Assembly: GCA_916048095.2 (NCBI GenBank)
Contig: OU696570.1
Span: forward strand, 69,501 to 133,500
DNA length: 64,000 bases
Direction: 5' to 3'
Source: Sacculina carcini
Lineage: Eukaryota; Arthropoda; Thecostraca; Sacculinidae
In this document: positions 26,001-32,000 of the stretch, one piece after another
How the letters are laid out: every line of letters starts with the position of its first letter
How positions within the stretch are numbered: the stretch's first letter is position 1
The notes under the pieces: generated by a model
Seen by the model: only the letters and a program-made list of their open reading frames with translations
Databases searched by the model: none
What the model was told of the DNA's origin: nothing
Made by a program: the position numbers and the translations under genes

Positions 26001-29000
26001 GTAATACAAGTAACACACACGTGATACAAGTAACACACACGTGACACAAGTAACACACACGTGATACAAGTAACATACACGTGATACAAGTAACACACAC
26101 GTGATACAAGTAGCATACACGTGATACAAGTAACACACACGTGATACAAGTAGCATACACGTGATACAAGTAACATACACGTGATACAAGTAACATACAC
26201 GTGATACAAGTAACATACACGTGATACAAGTAACATACACGTGAAACAAGTAACATACACGTGATACAAGTAACACACACGTGATACAAGTAACATACAC
26301 GTGATACAAGTAACATACACGTAATACAAGTAACATACACGTGATACAAGTAACACACACGTAATACAAGTAACACACACGTGATACAAGTAACACACAC
26401 GTGACACAAGTAACATACACGTGATACAAGTAACACACACGTGATACACATGACACACACACACACACACACATGCCCTGATGCAAGAACACAGCGATAA
26501 ATGTACACGACACAGAACACACGGTGCACGTATGATAAAACTCACCGAACTTCCAGTTTGCCGGTGACAGAGGCGGTCTTGGTGATGGATCGTGTGAGCA
26601 CCGGGAGAGGTGCGGAAGACTGCGAGCAACTGCTGCCAACAGATCCGCCCGTCACAACGTCACGCGACTCCAGTGATCTCCTGAAATTCTCTGAGCCAGG
26701 CCCACCCGCCAGCGCAGGGAGAACGGGTGCTACACCTCCAGTCAAACAAGGTTGTACCTGATCCAACTCCTCCTTCAGTTCATAGGCGCGAATAGAGCCT
26801 GAGATGACAAATAAAAATTGAAAACGAGACACTATAAGTACAAAAGAACGAATTACAATCCCGATTCCGACTTCAAACAATCACGTATATATTGCATACC
26901 TGCATAAACGTCGGTGTATATAGAATATTAAACTTACCTATCATGAAATTATCACATTTACACCAATTGTTCGTAATATTAGTACGAAACGTCTGTATTG
27001 ATAGTTAGTATTCGCGCTGTTTGATGCATGTATGTGTGTGTGTGTTGTATGTAGTCATAACGTTAGTCACCTGGAGGAAGTTCTTTTCGCCTTTTATCCA
27101 GCGATAAACGAATGAGATCCAGCTTTCGACTTGACTCCTGCATGCGTTGTTGCGCCTGTGACACACACACACACAATGTAATGAGATTACAGACGAAATG
27201 AAAGACAAGATACAACAGAAAACGCCGCACACACTGTGCATTGCACAATCTTGCTCAACGTACACGCTCAGAATAACACGGCAGACCAGCCGCGTGAAAA
27301 ATTGGTTAAAGTAGATGGAACCAGAGACTCACCTGAGAAACTACATGTCTGCGCTTGTTCATCCGCCTAGAGGAATCGTCGTGAAAAATAACAGATGCAC
27401 TCGAGACCGAACATACAGTATTTGCTGGAGTGAATGACAAATTGCTCGTAGTGGAACTTGTAGTGACAGCAATATCTAAATGATTGCAAGTTTCAACGAT
27501 ACTTGTATCGCAAGCAGGTAATGAGATGCGCGATGAATTAGGAGGACAGTCCACAGCAGCACACCCGGACGAATGTGAACGTTGACTAGAAGCAGTACAA
27601 GATATGACCGAGGCAGGACACGCTACACTGTAGGATTGCAACATGCCATTGGTTGTAGAAAACGTGACGTGTGGAGTGGTGGAAATGTTCGGCATCACCA
27701 TTGTTGTCGAGGTAGATGAAGTGAGTGGAGTCGGTGTAATGGATCCTGCGATCGAGATAAACGGGTTAGAAACAGGTGCAATTGACACCGGCGGAGCGGA
27801 AGATGACCAGGAAGATGAAGTTGTGAATGAGGTGGATAACTTGGCGAGAGTACTGGATGATGTAATGGGGATGGCGGATACAATTATATCAGATGAGGAA
27901 GTGATTGATGGCGTGGTGAACTGGATGGGTGGCGTATTACAAGTTATGGATGAACACGACAATAAGGACGAGTCAGGGGTAATGTAGGACGTTGAGGAAC
28001 TAACTGAAGACAAACCAGCAACGCGTGCCAGCAAAGTGGATTTTAGCACAGAGACTCGACTAAGAACGCTCTGAGAAGGTACAGTGTGGCCAGATTGCCA
28101 ACAGGATGATGAAGAAGTGCATGAGCTCACAGGACAAACGGGAAAAACACGAGAATCAGAAGAACAAGCTGTACTAGTGAGAGTGCGAGAACATGTTTGC
28201 GTCACTGAGGACTCAACACATGAGTGGAACAACGTCTGAGATGACGAGCTACATGATGAAATAGACGCTGAACTTTTCCGGCAGCTTTGTGACCCAGACA
28301 CTCGAATACATCCATATAAGAGTTGACGGAGAGCGGCCTGACGCCTGGAAATAGCCAACAGTTGTTCAACAGACGATGAACGGCGCACGGGCGAGGCAGA
28401 TGCGCAGGAGGAAACAAAAGAGGAATCGTCACTGTCCGTCGGTAATTCCCAGTCGCTGTAGTATTCGACAATACAACTGGACGAAGACGAGCTTGTAATT
28501 GACGATTCTGACGAGGAAGACTGAAGGCGTTCTGGTGAGTCTTGAAAAGATGAAGATAAATTTCGAAATGGCGAGAAATGTTGTTCAACCGGAAAAACCA
28601 CCGACGACGACTGATGGAAAACACGACGACACAAGGCCTCCATTAACAAAGACTGAAACGCACCGGCCGCTCGGATATTTGCACTCCTGTTGGAAGCCAA
28701 ATTTTCAACGAAGGAACGTTTTGCTCCAGCCTCGTCAACTGAAACACCATCCTCAAAACTGACATCAGCGTCATCGCCTTCATCTACTGAATTCCCTTCG
28801 GAATGCGACGAAGAACAAAGCTCACCACCAGAATATTCATCTTGGGTACCCTTCAAACGCGTAGCACATTGTGCTTGTGGCAAAAAGATGACCGTGGTGG
28901 CACTCTCACTACTGTCACTGTCCGAAAACACAGTCAGAGTTTCACTGTTGACAACGGGGCAGGATTGAAGCACCAAATCAGGTAGTTGAGACTTCGCCTT

Positions 29001-32000
29001 AGGCTGACATTGAGAGAGTGGCGAAGCGCCGTAAGGTTGACATCCAGAAGAAAGACACATCATGCTGGTGACAGAGTGAGCGGTGTTCGCTTCACCGCAT
29101 CGTCCTTTCCACCTCGACAGTGGACGACTTGTATGGTGACCTGTTACCGACACATTCAACAATGAATGAGACTTCAGTAGCGAGCACGAGGTTGTTCGCT
29201 TGTCATGCGTCACCACATCTCTTCTAACAACTCGTTGCGCACTTGCCGCTGTAGGTGACGTTAACGGTGAAGAATCTCTTATACCACGCCTACGCTGTCT
29301 CTTCCATCTGCCTACAACTCGCGACCACAAACCGCGAGCACGCTCCACACAACGCTCGTATACATCAGACATGCACGTACACACACACGCTGTCTTTGAG
29401 TCTGTGTGTAAGAGCACACATGCGCGCGCAATTCACCGCTCCCTCAAAGTGACCACAACACAGGTGTACATGCACGCGTGGCGCTAAAATATCAGCAGCA
29501 GCGAAAATGCGATACAACAGGTTACTTTGGCAGCACACTGCGAAAGACAACCGAACTCAAACTCCAGTGAAGGAATGGATATCTGGCTATGTGACAGTTG
29601 AGCTTCACTGCTGAAATACGGATTGCTCGTTAACCCACACCGCACTGATACGACAAACACACATTATGACTGATGAATGACGATGTGTCTATCGGTGTGT
29701 CGACATATGGTGCAACATATGCTGCTAAACGCGAGCAGGTGAAGTTACGACACAAACGCAAGTTGGCGGGTCACAAGCACAGATGCACGTGCGAACACCT
29801 GGGGCACCCACACACTCTCACACTCCCCACACTCAAATTCGCTGAGTAAAGATGAACAAAGAAACAACGACGTCACAGCTAGTCGGTTTGTATGACTCTC
29901 AAACGCTCAAGTTCACACTCAACAGCGTAGAAGTCTAGAAACAGTTCATTGGATGCGTAAACGATGTTCTACCAAGGTTCTTGTGATCACTGAGAATGAA
30001 AACAAATAAGGTCAATGAGTAGATAGCAACCTTCCAGAGAACAGCCACACGCTCGAATTATTAATAGTCAACCAACCTACAAAAGTCAAGTTGATGAAAC
30101 AAAATAAGGAGCAAGATACAAACGAAATTAGGATCGTTACCAGCAAGTTCCCGTGTACTTTACGGCGAACAAAAACAACAGTGCAAGTACCTATGAGCAC
30201 GTGGAAAATAATGCGGCCGTCAAAATACATAACATACAAAAGAAAATAGTTTGTCTTCAACCGCTCAAAAACAAATAAAAATACAGACTAATCAGATACA
30301 GACTTCAGAGTTTTTATGAGTGTAAACAGCGTAGGAAATGTTCAAACAATGAACGCTGAAAAATACGCGAAGTAAGTACATAATTTGTGGGCGTATTGCG
30401 AGCGCAAAATGATGAGGAAAATTGGTGTTTAAGGGCCGCACCCGCCTGTCAGACCATATGACGTTCCTGATCAGAATGAGCGCGATGAGTAGGCATATTA
30501 GCGTTGTCAGTGAACAAGAATCAAACATAAAATAAAAGAGTAATATAAAATAAATGTTCAATAATTATCGGTGGCTTATGAGTACACGAAGCTCGTGACC
30601 TCATGTGAACACACCACCACAACAAATGGGCACCGTGTAAATATCGGCAAATACAAAAACAAATACGTTTAAGTAAAGAGCATAAACCCTTCAAAATTAG
30701 AATAAAAATAAAATGAAAATAATGTTCAAAGCCATGTTCGCACACAATAAACCATAGCAAACTTGAAAAAGCACATCTCACTGAAAAACAACACATTTTG
30801 GTAGTTAGGCAGGGGAATCTTGCCAGTATTCCCGCGAATAAAATACACATACGGTTTACACTAGCAATAGTGTGTTGGTAAAACATGACACCTTGCTTCT
30901 CAACATATATACACGTCCACATAAAACAATCAGACATATGAAAGCACTGCAGTGCAGATGAAGAATCAGTTGATTGTGTAAACACACAGCCACATGATCC
31001 ACTGCAGACCTCAGTCTATGTCAGAGGCGCCAGAGATACGTGCACATACACACACAGATGCGTCAAGTTACAAGCCCACAAACGGCAGAGTGGCGTGTAA
31101 AACACGCAGGCGGCAAATGTGCCTCTCAGAAAGTCACAAACAAGCATGCAGCTAGAACACTGAACATAGCTTGATGTAAACATTGGGCATGAAACCAGCA
31201 GATGTTAAAGTACTGCTTCCAGCTCGTATGCTAGCATTTCTAACAAGAGAACTAACAGTGAAATACGGCTGCGGAATTGGCATTCTTGTGAAAATATCAG
31301 AAATTGAAGATAAAAGTGTGACGTGTCACCTCCTGAGTGGCCTTCTTGTCGTTGCTGCGCGTGGCTTGCAAGAGACGACAAGCGTTACGGGCACCCTCCA
31401 TTACAGCAGTCTCGATGCGAAGACGATGACGTAGCTGGTCGATGCGCACATCCAGCGGAGTCAGCTGACTCGTCTCAAACGCACGATCCACTGACACAAC
31501 CAGCACAACACCATCAATCACACCACGTCTCCAAACACTGTCACTCACGTCTCACATGATCACAACATCGATACGGTAATCAACTGTCTCACGTACACCG
31601 CTGCAACACCCCAACTATGTGGCCAACACCGCTGATAACTCACCGATGGACTGTCCTCCGTTGGCGTTGGTCTTGACGTCGTTCAACTTGCTGACGCGCA
31701 TTTTAATGTAGTCGATCTTGGCGCGAGCATCCTCGAGCATCTGGTGGGCGTCGCTGAGCAATTTCTTGCTCTGCTGTCCGCCCACCGATGAATACATACT
31801 GATCAGGTTCTCTGCTCCCTGCTTCACCTGTAATACACTCACACATACCCCGCGTCAAACACAATCACACAAACCCTGCCTGTATCAAAAATTATAATGG
31901 GCACTCGCCTTCATGAACTTACTCGAAGCACAAACAAATGAACGTGTCACAAACGACATAGGAACACAAAATACTTGGCAAAGAGTGAGGCTCTTTGCCA

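Follow-up and report, generated by a model that had tools for sequence, protein, structure and literature searches.

A serine-rich open reading frame within the PKN gene of Sacculina carcini as a candidate alternative first coding exon

Introduction

The PKN kinases are direct effectors of Rho and Rac, and among the closest systems known for the locus reported here is the Drosophila pkn gene. According to the available text of Sass and Ostrow (2014; PMC4059237), four transcription starts are predicted for this gene, each with its own translation start, and three of the four would encode the Rho-binding N terminus, which implies that one would not. Here we analyse a stretch of 64,000 nucleotides from Sacculina carcini (assembly GCA_916048095.2, contig OU696570.1, positions 69,501 to 133,500 of the forward strand), called the window throughout and the reference for all coordinates below. 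Its minus strand carries a PKN gene, and within the 4.17-kb intron between the HR1c exons of this gene lies a serine-rich open reading frame (27333..29372) that we read, with a probability of roughly 55%, as the initial coding exon of an alternative PKN transcript.

Both in Drosophila, as far as that text goes, and at this locus there is one PKN gene with several predicted starts, and every product is expected to retain the kinase. The starts given for the fly were compiled from FlyBase and are themselves predictions, and the comparison here is with their description in the text. PKM-zeta offers a second likeness: in the portion of a review available (PMC3517905), it is described as arising from PRKCZ, also a PKC-family gene, by an internal promoter in an intron, which yields a form that has lost the regulatory domain. 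PKM-zeta is reported there to start at a hinge methionine, whereas the form predicted here would start from an inferred promoter, retain C2 and helix 2 of HR1c and add a long leader. Caspase proteolysis of PKN, as outlined in the accessible part of PMC6408329, likewise frees the kinase from N-terminal regulation, but it is post-translational and creates no new N terminus, unlike the predicted isoform.

Canonical PKN1 and PKN2 combine three HR1 repeats with a PKN-type AGC kinase, and the host gene shares this architecture; the predicted isoform would exchange HR1a, HR1b and helix 1 of HR1c for the serine-rich stretch. The new parts would thus be the size of the leader and a joint inside HR1c, while the kind of isoform has precedent in the fly pkn predictions and in PKM-zeta, which limits the surprise. 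The initial annotation of this DNA, which could match such an N terminus to no known PKN isoform, went too far in this respect, given the starts predicted for fly pkn in the text seen. That report was the only one recognised in the literature on PKN isoforms and alternative starts, in a survey whose coverage took in few subscription papers.

Results

A long serine-rich frame in a PKN intron

Conceptual translation of the minus strand from 29372 to 27333 begins with Met and runs without interruption through 680 codons; 163 of the 680 residues (24%) are serine. From stop to stop the frame spans 708 codons (29432-27306) and closes with TAA at 27308-27306. The window contains 49 stop-to-stop frames of 120 codons or more, and a single one of them is longer, at 1101 codons. 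This longer frame (1475-4777, minus strand) belongs to a LINE-type element (long interspersed nuclear element) and encodes both endonuclease and reverse transcriptase.

We simulated sequences of 2127 nt under eight models (Markov orders 0-3, trained either on the region or on the intron upstream of it; 500 sequences each). The longest simulated open frame had 463 codons, which excludes a chance origin for one of 708. Stop codons are scarce on this strand here (0.028 per trinucleotide, compared with 0.041 in the upstream intron), and over the 708-codon stretch there are none in the open frame as against 23 and 36 in the other two sense frames. Serine codons of both families are raised in the open frame, AGY with 29 (15 and 18 in the other frames) and TCN with 134 (32 and 46). 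Since the serine runs are built from mixed codons and a repeat search found no tandem repeat in the 708-codon frame, these data speak against triplet expansion, and a triplet-repeat artefact was dropped as the source of the frame. Protein and DNA searches of the S. carcini genome, in which the best candidates were scored and which therefore give lower bounds, returned only the frame itself, so a repeat or transposon copy is disfavoured within the limits of these searches. In Pfam no match to the serine-rich product passed the cutoff, the one match below it being 'Phage_lipoprotein' (E 0.58), and the PDB yielded nothing at E 1 or below, so that neither search supports a hidden known domain.

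A strong donor in phase with the next PKN exon

The frame ends at a splice donor, CAG/GTGAGT (27327..27335, minus strand; the slash marks the exon end), whose last exon base is 27333 and whose phase is 0. Scored with a position weight matrix, it reaches 8.25, a value attained by only 2 of the 5426 minus-strand GTs; the second is 36886, at the end of the HR1a exon. The matrix holds general animal consensus weights and is untrained on this genome, and several PKN acceptors and donors score low with it. The remaining 14 PKN donors scored have a maximum of 4.58, and the canonical competitor, the HR1c donor at 31330 (GAG/GTGACA), scores 1.75. The open frame closes 27 bases beyond the donor. The intron predicted to follow (27156..27332, minus strand) contains neither AATAAA nor ATTAAA, by sequence inspection and motif search, and the exon that starts at 27155 is entered in phase 0, which matches the donor. 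This supports in-frame splicing of the 27333 end to the exon that encodes HR1c helix 2, as judged from the sequence.

The features from which the initial annotation argued are largely borne out: an ATG followed by exactly 680 open codons, a strong phase-0 donor and phase-0 entry of the HR1c exon are all present. It had placed the donor 178 bp before that exon; the order and the close spacing stand, but the intron (27332-27156) is 177 bases.

Coding signal along the frame

Base composition by codon position was compared with simulated stop-free Markov nulls of orders 1 and 2. For 29432-27333 the observed asymmetry was reached by 0 of 500 simulations under each null, and the same held, under both nulls, for the segments 29072-28613, 28610-28071 and 28070-27333. 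Over the first 253 codons (29372-28613), 2 of 500 reached the observed value. When 100-codon windows were moved along the frame, at most 6 of 400 simulations matched those from 28982 downwards, and the asymmetry is firm only from about 28980 on. Taken with the donor, this makes it very likely that the 29372-27333 region ends in a coding exon at 27333.

The host gene is PKN

The sequence evidence clearly identifies the host gene as PKN. Pfam recognises three HR1 stretches in the conceptual protein (E 9.7e-41). The 264-Mb genome has six listed HR1 matches with E up to 1; four correspond to the exons of this gene, one of the other two exceeds the cutoff, on contig C22, and one, on C8, is weak and contains a stop. 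The best PDB matches of the kinase domain are PKN2 (4crs, E 7.7e-162) and PKN1 (4otd, 2.9e-156), followed by PKC at 2.6e-92. At the expected place of C2, Pfam gave a below-cutoff C2_SYDE match alone (22 bits against a cutoff of 27).

All PKN exons lie on the minus strand. The HR1a exon extends at least over 36886..37225, as judged from its open frame, its HR1 match (37049-37225; genome C1:106549-106725) and its donor CAG/GTGAGT at 36886. From the exon joins, HR1b is divided between 32323..32432 (first half) and 31644..31827 (second half, with an HR1 match). Helix 1 of HR1c is encoded by 31330..31490, which leaves in phase 0 by its weak donor and is the canonical partner of 27155, and most of helix 2 by 27071..27155 (alignment and exon joins). 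Six linker and C2-region exons with consistent phases follow within 23363..26798 (26798-26546, 25646-25489, 24721-24653, 24011-23887, 23742-23614 and 23521 to about 23363, the last with an approximate 3' end); 24721-24653 has a poor acceptor (-4.98). The kinase is encoded by five exons within 8612..10873, identified by exon joins and a kinase structure match (10873-10831, 10382-10203, 10086-9935, 9606 to about 9279 and 8752 to about 8612).

In this exon model some 5' and 3' ends were set by eye, and the modelled parts flank a hinge from about 23.4 to 10.9 kb. Join phases agree from 32432 to 23521 and, in the kinase part, from 10873 to 9606; the final join there is in phase only if the exon extends about 2 bases past the end used, which was set by eye. 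The PKN exons join consistently without the serine-rich exon, and the open frame lies within the intron removed at the canonical HR1c junction (31330 to 27155), both sides of which are in phase 0. In an alignment with human PKN1 (chain 9rxe_A), exon 27155 begins at approximately residue 253, a figure that assumes the seven extra residues of this chain to be N-terminal. Helix 2 of PKN1 HR1c is placed at 247-277 in the available text of PMC13218154, so residue 253 falls inside it and the isoform would retain the greater part of helix 2 while losing all of helix 1.

Several features of the surrounding sequence were also recorded. The kinase exons (8500-11100, minus strand) have open frames. Long TA and CA microsatellites adjoin them, and several of their donors are poor (10831, AAA/GTACCG; about 9279). 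Minisatellite-like arrays occupy PKN introns at 25690-26470 and 22500-23200 (minus strand), where they are open in several frames and appear among the long open frames.

Where the exon begins

The 123 codons at the 5' end of the frame would be open by chance with a probability of 0.006-0.017, and an ATG followed by this open stretch fits a first coding exon. The next in-frame ATG (29061..29063, minus strand), at residue 104, has A at -3 and is a candidate start nearer the firm coding signal. Inside the frame, six phase-0 AGs score above -1.5 as candidate acceptors on the same strand. One (29003..29005, first exon base 29003, score 1.46) would give a 557-codon exon and has another 143 open codons above it; the others have first exon bases at 28850, 28610, 28337, 28235 and 28070. 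Three of the six, 29003, 28610 (2.16) and 28070 (2.3), exceed the median of the 15 PKN acceptors scored (1.31). Above the frame, acceptor-like sites at 29989, 29841 and 29537 (5.27, 5.09 and 4.75) mean that an upstream exon of 5' untranslated region is also allowed.

Predicted regulation and the nature of the leader

In the available text of PMC10956426, HR1a of PKN1 contacts RhoA and carries a pseudosubstrate, with an amphipathic lipid-binding site that overlaps, and a further pseudosubstrate is reported in C2. According to the part of PMC13218154 available, RhoA binding via HR1a is thought to release autoinhibition and Rac1 binds both HR1a and HR1b, while no interaction is reported for HR1c with RhoA, Rac1 or Cdc42; the stretch between C2 and the kinase is reported to inhibit in trans. 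By analogy with PKN1, losing HR1a and HR1b would remove Rho/Rac gating and one pseudosubstrate. The C2 pseudosubstrate and the C2-kinase stretch would stay, so that "Rho-blind" follows for the isoform and "constitutively active" does not. The loss of autoinhibition proposed in the initial annotation would thus extend to the HR1a pseudosubstrate, but full deregulation is not implied, given the two inhibitory elements that these texts place in the retained part.

The leader had also been called disordered and phosphorylatable. Its serine content fits the latter, but kinase-site motifs are no more frequent than in shuffled versions of its sequence (R-x-x-S/T, 10 against 13.7; S/T-P, 13 against 11.3). 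A single-sequence AlphaFold2 model was poor, with a mean predicted local distance difference test score (pLDDT) of 36.3 and 643 of 680 residues below 50, and the leader is predicted from this alignment-free model to be mostly without confident structure. Within it, residues 2-28 are modelled as a basic amphipathic helix with a mean pLDDT of 59-71 per ten-residue block, and of the 663 18-residue windows in the protein, the one with the highest hydrophobic moment lies in this helix.

A later PKN intron contains a second long open frame (16975-17988, minus strand) of 350 codons stop to stop, with 338 codons from ATG to a phase-0 donor (CAG/GTTTGT, score 1.12). It has no Pfam match up to E 0.1, a genome search returned only itself, and its base-position signal is weak (8-9 of 500, scored one base out of frame). 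It may be a hinge exon or provide yet another alternative first exon. A bolder scheme, which we regard as doubtful, is a promoter-switched second PKN form in which the 680-residue leader replaces the Rho-sensing half and the helix at residues 2-28 takes over the lipid-docking role reported for HR1a. The product would be a Rho-blind PKN gated by lipid or phosphorylation, and 17988-16975 could provide a further start that drops C2.

Other features of the window and genome

On the plus strand, frames for a BTB domain and then a BED zinc finger lie at 51757-53323 and may belong to a single gene, and 61989-62591 holds the dimerisation region of a hAT transposase. Elsewhere in the genome, protein kinase domains cluster on contigs C15, C20, C24, C31, C35 and others (for example, our loci L013-L037) as tandem kinase arrays, with very long open frames of up to 2897 codons and several domains about 1.4 kb apart.

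Discussion

We favour the serine-rich stretch as a first coding exon, and build this on the open frame, the coding asymmetry of its 3' part, the donor, the phase and the identity of the gene. The transcript would start inside the HR1c intron, from its own promoter or from a small upstream exon of 5' untranslated region, and would be spliced in frame from 27333 to 27155; its transcription, splicing and start codon, and the activity of the isoform, are what we infer. The protein would gain a leader of up to 680 residues, serine-rich and probably disordered, in place of HR1a (with Rho/Rac binding and the first pseudosubstrate), HR1b and helix 1 of HR1c; HR1c helix 2, the C2 region and the kinase would all be retained. 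Such an isoform is plausible from the sequence, and the loss of the GTPase-binding region with retention of the kinase follows from exon order if the exon is first. The choice of start site would then lie between a Rho/Rac-gated PKN and a form that GTPases could not gate through HR1a/b, held only by the C2 pseudosubstrate and by linker, lipid and phosphorylation controls.

Several observations weigh against this reading. The context of the ATG at 29372 is weak, with T at both -3 and +4. A pattern search found no TATA-box-like match in 31329-29373, and the ratio of observed to expected CpG is about 1 throughout (0.76-1.2), with no promoter contrast. This ratio is similar in exons and introns (26500-32500), suggesting that the genome is not depleted in CpG. 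In the first 100 codons the asymmetry does not stand out from either of the two nulls (89 and 76 of 500), and the 100-codon windows starting at 29432, 29282 and 29132 give 107, 20 and 150 of 400. Two genuine linker exons of PKN also fail this test, as does a hinge stretch (162, 277 and 93 of 400), showing that the power of the test is low, and the failure at the 5' end is as much a lack of power as counter-evidence.

Codon usage also counts against the first-exon reading. The frame scores -0.389 per codon, near the mean of intron windows (-0.423, n=186); values for the six PKN exons that were scored in frame lie between -0.341 and +0.477, and some of these exons are also weak. Its third-position GC content (GC3) is 0.42, compared with 0.74 in 32 RRM and kinase matches and 0.53 in PKN exons, the latter figure including one kinase control exon entered out of frame (0.688 / 0.384 in the codon-usage test in its right frame). 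The codon model was trained on 32 of 60 conserved-domain loci and left out L013-L037 (25 kinase loci, many in clusters on the same contigs), L046 and L061 (a stop in the match) and L054 (the same frame as L043). Usage like that of the genome's conserved coding sequence, which is not a strict defining feature, was thus not seen. The test is not clean, and its outcome suggests an exon that drifts fast or is little expressed, or else a relic.

The exon could instead be an internal cassette, with 31330 spliced to a phase-0 acceptor within the frame (29003, 28610, 28070 or another) and 27333 then to 27155, so that HR1a and HR1b are kept and 246-557 serine-rich residues are inserted near the start of HR1c helix 2. 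The six candidate acceptors, three of them above the PKN median, and the closeness of 29003 to the onset of firm asymmetry are consistent with this, but candidates are so common that one near the onset would be unsurprising, an insert in a coiled-coil helix region would be expected to disrupt it, and the improbably open codons above 29003 would be left unexplained. We consider a cassette possible, though a good deal less probable than a first exon. Intron-like codon usage, low GC3 and the weak ATG context would also suit a relic or rarely used exon, formerly coding and now drifting, with no meaningful protein output; a stop-free 708 codons, when the other sense frames hold 23 and 36 stops, and an intact donor make this unlikely.

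The frame has an ATG and a stop of its own and might be an independent, intronless gene that lies within the PKN intron and ends at the TAA. Neither polyadenylation-type motif occurs in the 177 bases before the PKN exon, no minus-strand AATAAA is found between 20456 and 38007, and the in-phase match of a perfect donor to PKN would have to be coincidence, so a nested gene is very improbable. Least credible of all is a chance open frame in an intron rich in serine codons: the strand is indeed poor in stops here, but even the order-3 model of the region produced nothing beyond 463 codons in 500 runs, and none of 500 simulations reached the observed asymmetry.

Annotation can easily overlook a coding exon of 2 kb in a conserved kinase gene when the exon is intronic, lacks a homologue in the searched libraries and shows intron-like codon usage. 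If the first-exon reading of the serine-rich stretch is true, one gene issues GTPase-gated and GTPase-blind forms of a Rho/Rac effector by choice of start site, and removal of a single exon would allow a clean test of Rho-independent roles of PKN.

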